From positions 310,001 to 374,000 of the forward strand of contig NZ_RPHB01000002.1 in NCBI RefSeq assembly GCF_019343195.1: 64,000 bases of DNA, given 5' to 3'. Source of the stretch: Arthrospiribacter ruber. Its GTDB lineage: Bacteria; Bacteroidota; Bacteroidia; Cytophagales; Cyclobacteriaceae. Made by a program: the position numbers and the translations under genes. This document shows, piece after piece, positions 41,910 through 50,142 of the stretch. The number at the start of each line of letters is the position of its first letter. Within the stretch, counting starts at the first letter, position 1. The notes beneath the pieces are model-generated. The model worked only from the letters and a program-made list of their open reading frames with translations. It was not told the DNA's origin and did not search any database.

Positions 41910-41975
41910 TATCTCTATAGTATTTCAATTGTATTTCCACTTTATTTCAATCGTATTTCTACCATATTTCAAACT
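41910..41975 (+). repeat. Degenerate 11-bp tandem array B (six units)
   Basis: Units TATCTCTATAG, TATTTCAATTG, TATTTCCACTT, TATTTCAATCG, TATTTCTACCA and TATTTCAAACT follow each other without spacers, the same 11-mer as array A. The last unit overlaps the end of the channel gene (stop at 41969). Further toward cusB, near 41805-41830, AGACATA is repeated in tandem with AGATTTA/AGATTTG variants. Confidence 0.75.
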
Positions 41976-43498
41976 CCAACCAACGTTTCTAATCTCGCCA
42001 ACTGAATCTCCCTCTCAATCTTCGTATTCAGCAAACTCAACCTGAAATCCAGCAATTCTCTTTGGATGCTCAAGATCTCTTCGAAGGAACTGCCTTCCGT
42101 CGCGTATGAAGTCACGGAAAGTTCCAAGGTTTGCTCGGTCAATTCAATTTGATCTTGTAAGAGTCGGATTTTACGGTCAGCATCTTTGATGGACACCAAG
42201 ATGGTTTCAAATTCAGTTTCCAGATTTCTTTGCAGGTCTTCTTTTTGCCTTTCATTGGCTTCCCAGTAAAGCTTGGATTCTGCTTCCATGGCTTTGTACT
42301 TTTTGCGGTAAATCGGCAGGGAAACCGTTGCCATCGGCATGATCATATTATTGCCCATACCTGCTGGCATATAATCCATTCCGCCCATACCACCAGGCAC
42401 GCCCATTTCAGGTCTAGGGGAAAACACCATATAATTCAATCCCAATCCAAACATGGGCTTACCTTCCAATTTGGCCATTTCACCTTGCTTCTGATAGGCC
42501 AAACCTTCTTTTTCCAGCATCAACAGCATGGGATTGGTCTCCAAAATTTGCTCAAGCATTTCTACTTCCCAACCCTTAGCTTTTTGACTTTCCGACTGGC
42601 TTTCTATGGCTACAACTTCGTTTTTATCCCTACCTAATAGTTGATTGAACCTTACTGTCAATGGGCGCTTGTCCACCTCCAACTGTTCCAAATCAGACTC
42701 TAAAGCCTTGATCTGAACTTGCAGTCGGAGTACATCCGTGAGTTTACCGGAACCTCCACCCGAACCCATGCTGTTCATGGAAGCAGCACCTGAGGATTGC
42801 CCTGAAGAAGTAGCGGAAGAACCTCCACCTCCCATGCCCATGCCATCATCTCCACTTCCCTGTTGGCTACCCCGTGTTGGCCTTCTTACCGCTGAAGACA
42901 CAGATGAAACAGCCTCAGAAGTACTTCCTCCCTGATAGCGGATGATAGCCAATTGCTCCAAAGATCTCAAAATCTCCAAATTGGATGCGGTAATGTCAAT
43001 GGTATTTTGCAATTGCTGCAATTGGAAGTAAGTCTCCTTGACCTGATACAGAAGTACATTCCGCTGCTGTCTGAATTCCTCGTATTTGGCCTCAGCCATC
43101 AGCGTGGCTTCATCCTTCTGCGTCCTTAGCATCCCAAACCAAGGAAACATCTGCATCACCGATGCCTCTGCCCGCTGATTCCCCATCAACAGCTCCATCG
43201 GTCTGGTAAAAACACCAATGTTCAATTGAGGGGATTCAAGGCTTACTTGGTTTGTTTTTTCTAATGAAGCCTGATACCCTTTAAAAGATGCTTGAAGTCC
43301 GGGGTTGTTTTCGGCTGCTTCTTCTAGGTATTGGTTTAAAGTTTGACCTTGGGCTAATCCTATATTCAACAGCCAAATAAACACTAGGAAAAGATATTTG
43401 TGGATATTGGATATTGATTGATATTGTACCAGAGCTCTAAGCTGTTCCTTTGATTTCAAGTATTCAGATAGGCAATATTTTTCTGTAAATCTGTTCAT
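41969..43498 (-). CDS. TolC/CusC-type outer-membrane efflux channel
   Basis: 509-residue outer-membrane factor completing the CusA/CusB pump. Two coiled-coil TolC repeats are visible (AEAKYEEFRQQRNVLLYQVK and AESKLYWEANERQKEDLQRN). Two odd inserts stand out: a Gly/Ser/Met-rich stretch around residues 212-252 (GSGDDGMGMGGGGSS), and a Met-rich loop around 365-395 (GVPGGMGGMDYMPAGMGNNM), possibly copper-binding. The hydrophobic signal (YLFLVFIWLLNIGLAQG) comes after a 34-residue leader that is partly encoded by the GATATT repeat array at 43393-43425. The ATG overlaps the stop of the upstream S23-type gene (ATGA). The start may have been remade by insertion of that unit. Confidence 0.88.
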   Translation of the reverse strand: MNRFTEKYCLSEYLKSKEQLRALVQYQSISNIHKYLFLVFIWLLNIGLAQGQTLNQYLEEAAENNPGLQASFKGYQASLEKTNQVSLESPQLNIGVFTRPMELLMGNQRAEASVMQMFPWFGMLRTQKDEATLMAEAKYEEFRQQRNVLLYQVKETYFQLQQLQNTIDITASNLEILRSLEQLAIIRYQGGSTSEAVSSVSSAVRRPTRGSQQGSGDDGMGMGGGGSSATSSGQSSGAASMNSMGSGGGSGKLTDVLRLQVQIKALESDLEQLEVDKRPLTVRFNQLLGRDKNEVVAIESQSESQKAKGWEVEMLEQILETNPMLLMLEKEGLAYQKQGEMAKLEGKPMFGLGLNYMVFSPRPEMGVPGGMGGMDYMPAGMGNNMIMPMATVSLPIYRKKYKAMEAESKLYWEANERQKEDLQRNLETEFETILVSIKDADRKIRLLQDQIELTEQTLELSVTSYATEGSSFEEILSIQRELLDFRLSLLNTKIEREIQLARLETLVGV

Positions 43499-44102
43499 TT
43501 CAATTCCTTTTTTGAATTGTAAATAGATTGAATGTAGTTGTTGAGTTTGAGTGAAAGTTTGTCAGACACTTGCTTGAAGTCATCAAACTCCTCCTTTGGA
43601 ATAATCTCTCTTTCAAGCATTAAGCTTAACCAATGATTTACGGCCTCGATCATAGATCCTCTGCTATTGTAGAGAAACCTAATTCTATCAAGATAATGAA
43701 ACCGACCATAGGACTCAGCTAAATTTGCCCCAATAGAATCTGTCGATTCAATAAATTGATCACCAATAATTTTTCGTGTCTGCCAATCCATTTTTTTATA
43801 AATAACCCATCCCTTCCGCGACAGCTGTCTGGACAATTTATACACCTCCAAATCCTCCAATTTTATATACCCCTTTTTCTCTTCCATATCATTAAAAGAT
43901 TACTTAAACCAAAGACTACTAATAACATTTACCCCATCTCCTCAATTGCCAACCAGCTAAATATTCAAATTAAACGCCTGAAGACCAGCCCAATATCTAA
44001 TATCAATGAATATCCATCAAAATCCTTTAGCACTTTCCAATAACCAAATAAACGTTTGATACCAAAACCAATATCCACCAATATCTAATATCCATTAATA
44101 TC
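43393..44102. mobile_element. S23-type gene unit bounded by inverted 33-nt phased arrays
   Basis: Left end 43393-43425 has GATATT at 43393, 43403, 43410 and 43420. Right end 44070-44102 has AATATC at 44070, 44080, 44087 and 44097. Both follow the plan 6-4-6-1-6-4-6, and the left end equals the reverse complement of the right at 28 of 33 positions. A partial inner copy (AATATC at 43992, 43999, 44009) lies next to the right end. The unit encloses the four-helix-bundle gene and splits cusA from the channel gene. 23S rRNA intervening sequences have the same plan: an S23 ORF inside inverted ends that pair as RNA. Confidence 0.55.
43495..43887 (-). CDS. Four-helix-bundle protein (S23 / IVS-type)
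   Basis: 130 residues of the TIGR02436/S23 family, first known from ORFs in 23S rRNA intervening sequences and related to Avd of diversity-generating retroelements. Family marks: LEDLEVYKLSRQLSRKGWVI, QFIESTDSIGANLAESYGRF, HYLDRIRFLYNSRGSMIEA. It probably forms a basic, nucleic-acid-binding homopentameric bundle like other members. It is wholly unrelated to the metal-efflux genes on either side, and its stop overlaps the channel start by four bases. It is bounded by inverted GATATT/AATATC arrays. Confidence 0.9.
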   Translation of the reverse strand: MEEKKGYIKLEDLEVYKLSRQLSRKGWVIYKKMDWQTRKIIGDQFIESTDSIGANLAESYGRFHYLDRIRFLYNSRGSMIEAVNHWLSLMLEREIIPKEEFDDFKQVSDKLSLKLNNYIQSIYNSKKELK

Positions 44103-44112
44103 AATTTTGAAT

Positions 44113-47100
44113 CTAACCCCTTATCTGATACTCCCTAAGTTTCCCATAAAGCACCGGCACAATAAACAGTGAAATCAACGCCACCGTCATCCCCCCAAAA
44201 GCAGGTATCGCCATAGGGATCATGATGTCGGAGCCTCGGCCTGAACTTGTCAGTACGGGAAGCAAAGCCAATAAAGTGGTTGCTGTTGTCATCAGACAAG
44301 GTCTAACCCTTTTCAGTCCGGCTTCCAAGACTGCTTTTCGTACTTCTTTTACATTTTCTGGCTGGATTTTTTCGAAGCTTTGTTTCAAATAGGTTCCCAT
44401 CACTACCCCATCATCGGTAGCGATACCGAAGAGGGCGATAAAGCCCACCCAAACTGCCACCGAAAGATTGAAGGTGCGCATTTGGAAGAGTTCCCGCATG
44501 TTGGTCCCTAAGAAGTTAAAGTCAAAAAACCAGTCTTGACCATACAGCCAAAGCATCATAAAACCTCCTGAAAATGCCATGGCAATGGCTGAGAAGATCA
44601 TCAAGACCATGGCTGTGGAGCGGAACTGCAGGTAAAGAATCAGGAAAATCACCGCCAAACACAGGGGTATCACAATCGCCAAGCGCTTTTCGGCACGGAT
44701 CTGATTTTCGTAACTTCCGGAGAAAGTGTAGGACACCCCGGTAGGTACTTTTAACTCACCGCTGTCAATTTTTTGTTGGATAAAGTTTCGGGCATCATCT
44801 ACCACTGAACCCTCAGCAAAGCCATCCCGCTTATCAAATAGCACATAGCCCACCAAGAAGGTGTTTTCCCCACGGATCATCATGGGTCCAGGTCTGTAAT
44901 TGATCTCTGCCAACTGCCCCAAAGGTATCTGTGCTCCCGTAGGCGTACTGACCAAAATCCGCTTCAAAGCTTCGGGATCATCCCTGTACTCTCTGGCATA
45001 TCGGGCACGGATGGCATAGCGTTCCCTGCCTTCTACCGTCGTGCTCAAGGTCATTCCGCCTATCGCCACTTCGATAAATTCCTGCACATCGGCAATATTC
45101 AGCCCAAACCTACCCAGTTGGGTTCTATCCAAATCAATCTCCAAATACGGCTTGCCCAAAGAACGGTCTGCAAAAACTGCCTCAGACTTTACGGAAGGCA
45201 CTTCTTTCAACACCGACTCCAACTTCAAGCTGAAATCCTCTATGGTTTCCAAATCTGGACCATACACTTTCATCCCCATAGGAGCACGCATTCCCGTCTG
45301 CAACATCACCAAGCGGGTTTCGATAGGCTGGAGTTTAGGTGCGGAAGTTACCCCGGGAAGATTGGAGGTACGCACTTGGATTTCATCCCATATATCATCA
45401 GGCGTGCGGATTTCATCCCTCCACTGACGGAAGTATTGACCACGTCTTTCATTTGGCACCAAGTATTTGGCGACATTTCTAATCACCGACCTGCGCTGGG
45501 ATTCCTCCATGTAATTCTTTTCTTCATCCCATATAGCCCCATCCTGACGGTCATACCACCAGGTTTTACCATTAACCTCAAGCTGATAATTTCCCTCTCG
45601 ATCTACTTCAAATCGGAGTTTGCGGGCATCATCATCCTGAAGGTATTCAGTCTTGTAATTGATGATATTTTCATACATGGACATGGGAGCGGGATCAAGC
45701 GGACTTTCTGCCCTACCTGCTTTTCCAACCACCATTTCCACCTCCGGAATGGCCTGCACCAACATATCAAGCTGCTTTACAATCTGCATATTGGCCTCCA
45801 CGCCGGAGTGAGGCATAGAGGTAGGCATCAAAAGAAAAGAGCCTTCATTCAAGGCTGGCATAAACTCCTTGCCCATGCCAGGAAAGGTATGGGTCAGGCC
45901 CGACCAAACAGATGTGGTGCGGATATTGACTCCCAATTTGTCAAAACCGGTAGCCACAAAACCGAAAATATTTCCAAACCCTATCCAAATATTCAAAGCC
46001 AAAAGGATAACTGTCAAAGGGATCAGTAAAAAGATTTTAGCGTTTTCCAAGCACCAATTTAGCAGTTGCGCATAGTAGTGGATAAACAAGGCGAATACCC
46101 CCAAAACCAAACCCACTACCAGACCAATAAAAATAAAGTTAACGAATACAGATTGGGTCAAGCCCAATGGTCTCCACTCAATCGCCAATAAAACGGATAC
46201 TGCCACCACAGCTATCAGCATGGCAATCTGATTTTTGTAGCGTCCCTCTTTTGTTTGTTTTAGGAAAAAGTGATGGATCAAATGATTGGCTGCAAAAGCC
46301 AATAAGACCCATCCCGCCCAAGGGAAATAGAACAGTAGCACTAAGCCCAAAACTGCCATGGCGATATTCAGCACCGTCTTATAATTCTTGGACTTCACTT
46401 TCGCTCCAAACACCCAATGGGCAAAAGCCGGCATAAAGATCAAAGTAAAGATTAAAGCTGCGATCAAAGCAAAGGTCTTGGTATAGGCCAATGGCCCGAA
46501 CAACTTCCCTTCCGCTGCCTGCAGAGTAAATACAGGCAAGAAGCTGACAATCGTAGTCATCACAGCTGTCAAGATCGCCGAACTCACCTCTGTGGTCGCA
46601 TCATAAATAATCTGGAGTTTGGACTTTTTATCATCAGACTCTTCGAGATACCTAAGTATATTTTCATTCAGAATAATCCCCAAATCCACCATGGTTCCAA
46701 TGGCAATGGCAATACCCGAAAGCGCCACAATATTGGCATCCACGCCTACATACTTCATCATGATAAAACACATCAAGACTGCCAATGGCAACAATGCGGA
46801 GATCAAAATCGAAGCTCGAAGGTTATACACCATCACCATGATCACAATGATGGTAATCAAAATTTGCAAGCTGATGGCTTCATTCAGTGTATTCAAGGTT
46901 TCCTTGATCAGTCCAGAACGGTCATAGAAAGGCACTATAGTCACCTTGGAGACCGTACCATCTTCCAGCGTTTTGCTCGGAAGTCCTGGGGTGATTTCAT
47001 CGATTTTAGCTTTGAGTGCATCAATTACCTGAAGAGGATTGTCTCCGTAGCGTGCCACTACCACGCCACCTACTGCTTCGGCACCACCCTTGTCCAAAAT

Positions 47101-47979
47101 AGCCCTTTCCGCCCTACTTGCCGGCCCAATATTCACTTTGGCAATATCCCTGATTCTCAAGGGGACATTGTTGCTGGTTTTGACTACCGCCTTTTCGATG
47201 TCCTCCAGAGACTTCACATAGCCCAAGCCCCTCACAATAAATTCCACCTGATTGATCTCCATGGTATTGGCGCCGATATCGAGGTTGGATTGCTTGATGG
47301 CATTCATCACCTGCATCATGGAGACGTTGTGGGCCTTCATGGCCACAGGATCCAGGTCCACTTGGTATTCCTTGACATGTCCACCAATGGTCGCTACCTC
47401 TGCGACTCCTTCTGTCCCAGCCAAGCCATAGCGCACATAGTAATCCTGAATGCTACGGAGTTCGTGTAGGTCCCAGCCACCTACTGGATTGCCATTTTCA
47501 TCTCTTCCTTCAAGTGTATAAAAATATACTTGCCCAAGACCAGTTGCATCCGGCCCGAGTTTGGGTTGTACCCCCTCGGGTAGCAATCCTGACGGCAAGG
47601 AATTGAGCTTTTCCAAAATCCTGGATCTACTCCAGTAAAATTCCACGTCATCTTCGAAAATGATGTAAATGGAAGAAAAACCGAACATAGAAGTACTTCG
47701 GATAGACTTGACTCCTGGCATTCCCAAAAGGGAAGTAGTCAGCGGATAGGTAATCTGATCCTCCACATCCTGCGGAGAGCGTCCCATCCAGTCGGTAAAG
47801 ACGATTTGCTGGTTTTCCCCAATATCCGGAATGGCATCAACTGGCACAGGGTCATTGGGAAGAAAACCGGTATTCCAGTTAAACGGTGCCGTCACGATTC
47901 CCCATGCCACTACAAGGACAAGTAGGATGACGGTGACCAGTTTATTTTCGAGGAAGAATTTTATTATAGTATTGAGCAT
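44113..47979 (-). CDS. cusA: CusA/CzcA-type heavy-metal RND efflux pump
   Basis: 1288 residues, inner-membrane proton-driven exporter of Cu(I)/Ag(I)-type metals. It has the HME-RND start (VDAIPDIGENQQIVFTDWMG, RSPQDVEDQITYPLTTSLLG) and the TM4 proton-relay segment ALSGIAIAIGTMVDLGIILN with its Asp. In the porter domain GMRAPMGMKVYGP resembles the methionine relay of CusA. It is ~240 residues longer than E. coli CusA. The excess is an inserted membrane region about residues 525-690 and a Trp/Arg-rich segment near 830-890; both occur in other Bacteroidota pumps. It is followed downstream by the S23 unit, the channel and cusB. Confidence 0.93.
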   Translation of the reverse strand: MLNTIIKFFLENKLVTVILLVLVVAWGIVTAPFNWNTGFLPNDPVPVDAIPDIGENQQIVFTDWMGRSPQDVEDQITYPLTTSLLGMPGVKSIRSTSMFGFSSIYIIFEDDVEFYWSRSRILEKLNSLPSGLLPEGVQPKLGPDATGLGQVYFYTLEGRDENGNPVGGWDLHELRSIQDYYVRYGLAGTEGVAEVATIGGHVKEYQVDLDPVAMKAHNVSMMQVMNAIKQSNLDIGANTMEINQVEFIVRGLGYVKSLEDIEKAVVKTSNNVPLRIRDIAKVNIGPASRAERAILDKGGAEAVGGVVVARYGDNPLQVIDALKAKIDEITPGLPSKTLEDGTVSKVTIVPFYDRSGLIKETLNTLNEAISLQILITIIVIMVMVYNLRASILISALLPLAVLMCFIMMKYVGVDANIVALSGIAIAIGTMVDLGIILNENILRYLEESDDKKSKLQIIYDATTEVSSAILTAVMTTIVSFLPVFTLQAAEGKLFGPLAYTKTFALIAALIFTLIFMPAFAHWVFGAKVKSKNYKTVLNIAMAVLGLVLLFYFPWAGWVLLAFAANHLIHHFFLKQTKEGRYKNQIAMLIAVVAVSVLLAIEWRPLGLTQSVFVNFIFIGLVVGLVLGVFALFIHYYAQLLNWCLENAKIFLLIPLTVILLALNIWIGFGNIFGFVATGFDKLGVNIRTTSVWSGLTHTFPGMGKEFMPALNEGSFLLMPTSMPHSGVEANMQIVKQLDMLVQAIPEVEMVVGKAGRAESPLDPAPMSMYENIINYKTEYLQDDDARKLRFEVDREGNYQLEVNGKTWWYDRQDGAIWDEEKNYMEESQRRSVIRNVAKYLVPNERRGQYFRQWRDEIRTPDDIWDEIQVRTSNLPGVTSAPKLQPIETRLVMLQTGMRAPMGMKVYGPDLETIEDFSLKLESVLKEVPSVKSEAVFADRSLGKPYLEIDLDRTQLGRFGLNIADVQEFIEVAIGGMTLSTTVEGRERYAIRARYAREYRDDPEALKRILVSTPTGAQIPLGQLAEINYRPGPMMIRGENTFLVGYVLFDKRDGFAEGSVVDDARNFIQQKIDSGELKVPTGVSYTFSGSYENQIRAEKRLAIVIPLCLAVIFLILYLQFRSTAMVLMIFSAIAMAFSGGFMMLWLYGQDWFFDFNFLGTNMRELFQMRTFNLSVAVWVGFIALFGIATDDGVVMGTYLKQSFEKIQPENVKEVRKAVLEAGLKRVRPCLMTTATTLLALLPVLTSSGRGSDIMIPMAIPAFGGMTVALISLFIVPVLYGKLREYQIRG

Positions 47980-48033: not shown

Positions 48034-48067
48034 GATATTAATTGATATTCAGATACTTATAGATATT
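48034..48067 (+). repeat. Solo GATATT array upstream of cusA
   Basis: GATATT at 48034 and 48044, GATACT at 48052, GATATT at 48062: spacing 10, 8, 10, nearly the plan of the ends of the S23 unit (10, 7, 10). It lies 55 bases before the cusA start on the non-coding side, with no inverted partner close by. Confidence 0.5.
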
Positions 48068-50022: not shown

Positions 50023-50142
50023 GATATTCGTAGATATTTTTGGATATTAGGATATTGTGATACTTAACTCGAAAACTGATTTCTAAATTTAACATTGAAA
50101 CTGAACCCTAATATCTATTAATATCCAGTATCTACTAATATC
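50023..50142. repeat. ORF-less inverted GATATT/AATATC element
   Basis: GATATT at 50023, 50033, 50043 and 50051 (GATACT at 50059), then about 45 bases, then AATATC at 50110 and 50120, AGTATC at 50127, AATATC at 50137. The right array has the exact 10-7-10 spacing of the S23-unit ends; the left has 10-10-8. The two arrays are inverted to each other, so the 120 bases can fold back. It looks like a small non-coding relative of the S23 unit, placed between copZ and copA. Confidence 0.5.

Follow-up and report, generated by a model that had tools for sequence, protein, structure and literature searches.

In REP/RAYT systems, built of repetitive extragenic palindromes (REPs) and REP-associated tyrosine transposases (RAYTs), one cognate gene lies beside inverted repeats and many gene-less copies are found elsewhere. 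A second point of reference is the intervening sequence (IVS) of rRNA: that of Coxiella has tandem GACAGAT heptamers upstream of its S23 open reading frame (ORF) and a 28-bp terminal stem, and IVS functionality and origin are called unclear by the same source (PMC4990558). Direct repeats of the heptamer TAACTGA occupy intergenic positions in Bacteroidetes, Cyanobacteria and Beggiatoaceae, and for their transfer 'no mechanism is evident', according to MacGregor 2015 (PMC4679880); genes annotated as 23S_rRNA_IVP are placed in cas loci, between cmr2 and cmr3, in a passage of PMC3936711. Here, we relate these systems to a 64,000-nt stretch of the Arthrospiribacter ruber genome (NZ_RPHB01000002.1, positions 310,001 to 374,000; the window), in which an S23 gene of the IVS protein (IVP) family stands between inverted arrays of the six-letter word GATATT in a cusA-tolC operon. 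In many bacteria, we found, the type of S23 protein and the word of its arrays are paired, and this points to a small mobile or dispersed element of a kind not described before.

An S23 gene between inverted GATATT arrays

The original prediction on this locus described an S23 gene that splits a cusA-channel operon and is bounded by 33-nt inverted GATATT arrays. Both statements hold, the former by the PF05635 and TIGR02436 matches of the gene and by its CusA/CzcA-type resistance-nodulation-division (RND) and TolC-like neighbours, the latter to the exact position. The parts of the unit are as follows.

43495..43887, minus strand: S23/IVP four-helix-bundle gene, 130 aa, matching profiles PF05635 and TIGR02436
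44070..44102, minus strand: outer (upstream) GATATT array, 10-7-10 phasing, read in the direction of the gene
43992..44024, minus strand: inner (second upstream) array, GATTTT-N4-GATATT-N4-GATATT-N1-GATATT, inside the unit
43393..43425, plus strand: downstream inverted GATATT array, within the tolC frame, in the N-terminal leader around QYQSISNIHKYLF

Both outer arms follow the pattern GATATT-N4-GATATT-N1-GATATT-N4-GATATT. With one of the two reverse-complemented, they match at 28 of 33 positions (motif positions 24/24, spacer positions 4/9), and the downstream arm encodes part of the TolC leader. The protein belongs to the S23 family by both profiles (PF05635, 70.3 bits at a cut-off of 33.8; TIGR02436, 67.8 bits at a cut-off of 24), PF05635 being the sole Pfam match for the unit's one gene, and no transposase was found among the unit's ORFs. 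Rfam gave no match within 40-51 kb of the window, and the unit sits between cusA and tolC, not in an rRNA gene. Structurally, the AlphaFold2 model (predicted local distance difference test score 93.9) is a four-helix bundle whose fold is shared with 2GSC and 2RLD (Foldseek E-values of 5.6e-05 and 4.7e-04), each of which comprises five chains, and with Avd, a protein of diversity-generating retroelements (DGRs; 4DWL, 8UBE, 8UB7), at a sequence identity of 7-9%. The 5.36-Mb A. ruber genome holds 12 four-motif GATATT arrays (middle gap 1-3) and 147 GATATTN4GATATT doublets, where a reversed control pattern gave 0 matches; GATATT arrays in this genome exceed chance.

Arrays and words at other S23 genes

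Named genomes were searched with an alignment of five S23 proteins from cus sites, which yielded 80 loci from several phyla; 71 of them could be scored, the other 9 lacking 400 nt of flank. Each locus was scored by its best 6-mer, repeated on the upstream side and, in inverted form, on the downstream side, with a threshold of at least three copies on each side. Inverted arrays were present at 42/71 of these loci, compared to 4/258 shifted pseudo-genes, 195/1402 cross-paired flanks and 7/71 for the direct orientation. A further 63 PF05635 loci were made up of 9 from the A. ruber genome, 26 from five genomes chosen because of their arrays or a close S23 gene (4 cus-site genes among them) and an order sample of 28 drawn without regard to arrays; 20/63 reached the threshold (shifted, 2/126; cross-paired, 29/1243; direct, 7/63), as did 6/28 of the order sample. 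Arrays are common at S23 genes of the cus-site subfamily, and perhaps between a fifth and a third of S23 genes in general have them. A further S23 gene, at a contig edge (G447), is not among the loci analysed. Units of this layout are found in Bacteroidota, Patescibacteria, Campylobacterota, Nitrospirota, Chloroflexota and on cyanobacterial plasmids; on viral contigs, no relative was confirmed. For the plasmids, 12 of 30 matched records were examined, and 5 of 12 S23 loci (L402, L404, L405, L407, L409) carry tandem heptamers in three or more copies on both sides, a count that has no shifted control, with words that include GGGAGTA, GGGAACA and AGGTGAC.

On cyanobacterial plasmids, S23 genes with heptamer-like arrays stand between cas6 and cas4 (L405, L409) and between cas10 and cmr3 (L412, with two copies on its weaker side), and the GGGAGTA-array S23 gene of a Nostoc plasmid (L402) lies between two ribonucleotide reductase subunit genes, on the strand opposite to both. 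Another S23 gene of A. ruber (L017:1230-2240) has long AGTTAATAGTGA-type arrays which, by eye, are like the TAACTGA heptamers of MacGregor 2015.

The word follows the protein. In 39 array-bearing loci, compared as ordered pairs, all 134 pairs of S23 proteins at least 70% identical share their word, as do 191/1196 of those 40-70% identical and 0/152 of those below 40%. GATATT is found in two clades that lie apart, Cyclobacteriaceae and one of Patescibacteria. Two loci with one S23 type in two genomes (L022 in G000, L126 in G021) both carry GATTTACGA arrays, the word again following the protein.

Two positions in the protein are candidates for setting the word, in the window's S23 R68 and I122 (residue 68 of the protein is residue 67 in the Met-less alignment). 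In the model, each is 24 residues from the turn between helices H3 and H4, on either side, and because of this, given the helix limits, the two probably lie at the same end of the bundle. Group labels were in some of the analyses assigned partly by eye, whereas the residue tallies, blind test and tree test all come from one fixed automatic caller. With this caller, residue 68 goes with letters 2-3 of the word: R with GAT in 13/16, K with GAA in 27/30 and S with GTT in 6/7 loci. Within Cyclobacteriaceae, 46 of 49 S23 places were used (omitting G018, G019 and G524), and K goes with GAA in 18/18, R with GAT in 17/20, and R together with I122 with GAT in 17/17, most of the 46 loci being near-copies of loci counted before. 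New rows (below 0.90 identity to the first set) that have a call and R or K are K/GAA (4), R with I122/GAT (3), R with T or A122/GAG (2) and R/GAA (1, truncated). On the tree, the count was confined to proteins that have R or K and a GAT or GAA word, and five short or badly aligned proteins were left out, including L226, an R protein with GAA that contradicts the code; the tally is 40/40 (40/41 with L226). We regard a residue code in which R with I specifies GATATT, and K specifies GAAATA or GAAATT, as a strong lead and no proof; outside the cus-site subfamily it does not hold as such.

Insertion, exchange and dispersed arrays

The operon around the unit, and the further arrays in its neighbourhood, comprise the following.

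44113..47979, minus strand: cusA-like RND transporter gene (CusA/CzcA; TIGR00914, 791 bits), upstream of the unit
41969..43498, minus strand: TolC-like channel gene, its start overlapping the S23 stop as ATGA
about 43345..44140, minus strand: putative exchangeable cassette of cusA last codons, arrays, S23, arrays and TolC leader/signal region; edges approximate, judged from the break points of relatives
41921..41970, minus strand: GAAATA array of five motifs with an 11-bp phase, between tolC and cusB
48034..48067, plus strand: solo GATATT array, 10-8-10, one motif degenerate
50023..50142, strand not set: ORF-less inverted pair of GATATT arrays

The solo array and the ORF-less pair had been noted in the original prediction and are both real. 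The observation as a whole is confirmed, and is wider than first described, in that the inner array, the overlap with the tolC frame and the GAAATA array come in addition. GAAATA is the word of the other S23 type, here in the same operon as a GATATT unit.

The prediction further took the unit to be possibly mobile, and as regards insertion the relatives bear this out: where the unit is missing, cusA and tolC abut. Of 20 Cyclobacteriaceae genomes surveyed, 19 lack S23 at the cus site; the cusA end was located 18 times, in 17 of the 20. Leaving G018 aside, the tolC frame is open 0-2 nt past the cusA stop in 16/17 loci, and from +78 in L392. The 330 nt downstream at S23-less cus sites contain no GATATT or GAAATA array, and at most two copies of either word per strand. 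In the closest empty site, that of G639, the cusA end is 92% identical, the other empty sites being more distant. These comparisons support the S23-plus-arrays unit as an insertion in a tight cusA-tolC operon. Past the cusA stop of an S23-less genome (L398 in G612), the tolC leader has GATTTC four times, perhaps a remnant, and at two loci an S23 frame runs in frame into TolC (L082 in G018, where a truncated S23 is fused, and L360 in G600, an open frame of 657 aa).

Both S23 types are found at the same cus site within five genera (g19, g22, g248, g270, g278). A comparison of G621 (K) and G666 (R), from the same genus, locates the change: the 1.2 kb that end in the final codons of cusA are 89-100% identical per 100 nt (mean about 96%), and the first 200 nt of tolC past the leader are 95-99% identical, then 67-91%. 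Between these breaks lie about 755 nt of 41-68% identity with no shared 25-mer, and the S23 genes and arrays are of different types (different word, distant protein). Identity of cusA does not follow type, being 0.947 between and 0.957 within types inside genera, and 0.906 for both between genera. For this reason, we judge from these alignments that the S23-array piece has been swapped largely without cusA, whether through homologous recombination or through movement of its own.

Gene-less arrays were surveyed in 295 genomes of Cyclobacteriaceae, with S23 presence called at E<=1e-50. Of the genomes with at least 5 GATATT matches, 25/28 carry S23, versus 16/267 of the others (odds ratio 131; the threshold of 5 was set after the counts were seen, and the genomes are related), and of those with at least 5 GAAATA matches, 34/39 do so by hand count. 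The GATATT share among dispersed arrays has a median of 0.65 in R-type (n=15) and 0.40 in K-type genomes (n=13; p=0.005). Of 50 dispersed arrays, 9 face an exact inverted partner and 1 has such a partner at its back, with one element counted from both arms. Few pairs have three exact words in each arm (3 GATATT, 5 GAAATA); their spacers agree at 2/6 and 13/27 positions, as across elements. The ORF-less and solo copies, as the prediction had proposed, form a dispersed array family. It had also named arrays at places other than S23 genes as speaking against it: here, most dispersed arrays are indeed not beside an S23 gene, whereas array-rich genomes nearly all carry one.

Readings of the element and its place among known systems

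Sequence comparison demonstrates inverted arrays, insertion into a closed operon, a tie of protein and word, gene-less arrays mainly in gene-bearing genomes, and cassette replacement. We consider it fairly probable, inferring binding and transposition from the sequences, that the unit is a REP/RAYT-like element ending in arrays, and S23 the protein that specifically binds its word. The ends of such an element would be inverted arrays of a short word, and its only gene would be an S23 recognising that word. Both arrays point into the unit, in the manner of terminal inverted repeats, and so on the simplest reading S23 recognises double-stranded DNA at both ends, presumably with several subunits seated on the phased sites. 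As the fold is without a nuclease, movement would need a partner, and S23 may recruit a host or other enzyme to this end; arrays would spread in trans, as REPs do with RAYT transposases.

A number of observations weigh against this reading. Arrays fall below threshold at 29/71 named and 43/63 further loci, and among the 11 S23 genes of the A. ruber genome (12 matches, two being pieces of one gene) only the one of the present unit has GATATT arrays of at least three words within 1.5 kb. Eight cases are array-rich without the gene (GATATT in G493, G563 and G652; GAAATA in G612, G639, G648, G652 and G712), the GAAATA-rich ones belonging to genera (g60, g248) whose other members carry S23; most S23-bearing genomes hold both GATATT and GAAATA arrays whatever their resident type, and 41/50 dispersed arrays are without an exact inverted partner. 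As for movement, diverged flanks were compared for a target-site duplication and none was resolved or established, and cusA and tolC were recognised on both sides in 29/46 Cyclobacteriaceae loci; with the S23 gene mostly at one site in this family, the gene itself would rarely jump. Within genera, TolC identity is 0.832 between types and 0.871 within, and the nearest cusA relative is of the same type in 17/27, so that ordinary homologous recombination across the region may be enough. The residue code has its own exceptions: three other Cyclobacteriaceae R loci (two GAG with T or A122, one GAA in the truncated L381), R with GAA in L226, GTT in L212 and GAG in L219, three K loci with other words, one S with GTC, and the S loci L302 and L309 with GGG and GAG. 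A blind test on 89 further Bacteroidota S23 proteins hardly applied, most belonging to other subfamilies (among K proteins GAA once and 11 without a call, among R proteins three without a call, S with GGG and GAG). The code is only a strong lead because independent changes on the tree number 3-4 (sign test p=0.25).

Of the alternatives, a transcription regulator, with the arrays as its operators and the dispersed copies as its regulon, is unlikely but fares best. Specific recognition of repeated phased sites would look alike, and the arrays flank the gene and occur in the cus region. The positions of 49 dispersed GATATT arrays, however, match background: 2 are in ORFs, 7 at edges and 40 classifiable as intergenic, of which 30 are tandem, 9 convergent and 1 divergent, near the background of 67/24/9% (crude ORF caller), with no promoter bias; on this ground the promoter reading was rejected. 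Nor are a cassette swap and inverted ends expected of an operator.

Somewhat less likely still is that the arrays act in RNA, with an S23 ring binding the words of a transcript and setting tolC translation or mRNA stability, much as the trp RNA-binding attenuation protein (TRAP) is a ring that binds repeated words in a transcript. The overlap of S23 stop and tolC start would fit, as would the likeness of the fold to Avd in the DGR ribonucleoprotein (8UBE, 8UB7). With inverted arrays, though, only one side of a transcript would bear the word itself, the other bearing its complement, and array matches in the A. ruber genome lie on both strands (36 and 44).

The original prediction itself favoured an IVS-like RNA unit whose ends fold together and are excised by RNase III, which we now consider improbable. 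S23 is of the same protein family as the IVS ORFs, the Coxiella IVS likewise combines heptamers with a 28-bp stem (PMC4990558), and short stretches of the arms in the window are able to pair (19 nt at 95%, 18 nt at 94%; 200-nt arms, duplex energy -75.1 kcal/mol). The arms of a unit pair no clearly better with each other than with arms of same-type units at other loci, against which the own partner ranks at 0.56 and 0.52. Own and other arms are close in alignment score (27.3 vs 24.8; 26.6 vs 25.0), in non-motif identity (0.688 vs 0.684; 0.670 vs 0.689) and in duplex energy (-71.0 vs -69.3; -63.7 vs -62.8 kcal/mol), the spacers of the window's unit agree at 4/9 positions, and the 40 loci scanned of the 80 named ones gave no Rfam rRNA match. 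That own arms are hardly better partners argues for selection on the word rather than on a stem, and a dedicated stem was rejected as the main reading for want of a clear excess of own-partner complementarity. Passive tandem-repeat expansion with S23 as an incidental passenger is very improbable: short tandem words expand readily and many arrays are far from S23 genes, but such expansion would leave their inversion at both ends, the tie of word and protein and their concentration in S23-bearing genomes without a cause.

The comparison with IVSs may hold in reverse, given the Coxiella heptamers and stem: rRNA IVSs could be one case of a wider array element. More tentatively, S23/IVP proteins may form a class of word-specific array binders that define pan-bacterial mobile or dispersed elements, covering rRNA IVSs, cyanobacterial heptamers and TAACTGA arrays, with residues 68 and 122 setting much of the word. 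A protein-word code, if true, would give a function to the S23/IVP family, which is widespread and has two solved structures, and a cause to the unexplained short-repeat arrays of Bacteroidota and cyanobacteria. Few folds recognise the termini of mobile DNA, and a four-helix oligomer would then join them. In the open literature, with subscription papers and preprints outside its scope, we found no publication tying S23 genes to such arrays; the novelty of the tie is a judgement on this basis. The short tandemly repeated repetitive (STRR) heptanucleotides of cyanobacteria are presumably akin to the inverted heptamer arrays around plasmid S23/four-helix genes, and the open literature search found no title or abstract joining STRR and S23.

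Compared with known systems, the element shares with the rRNA IVSs of Leptospira, Coxiella and Xanthomonas a protein family and inverted-repeat ends and, with that of Coxiella, heptamers upstream of the ORF (PMC4990558), but differs in lying in a protein-coding operon, in arms matched only by the shared word and in having gene-less arrays dispersed. The TAACTGA paper (PMC4679880) does not use the words S23 or four helix in its main text, and the likeness of the L017 arrays is one by eye only. S23 genes of cas loci likewise lie between operon genes here (cas6/cas4 twice, cas10/cmr3), the passage of PMC3936711 being without flanking arrays. Avd of DGRs has the same four-helix fold. From REP/RAYT systems the element differs in having no Y1/HUH transposase, S23 being a four-helix protein that matches PF05635 only in Pfam, and in repeats that are arrays of 6-7 bp words and not one palindrome. 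It resembles them in two respects, a gene flanked by an inverted repeat and gene-less copies in gene-bearing genomes (25/28 vs 16/267).

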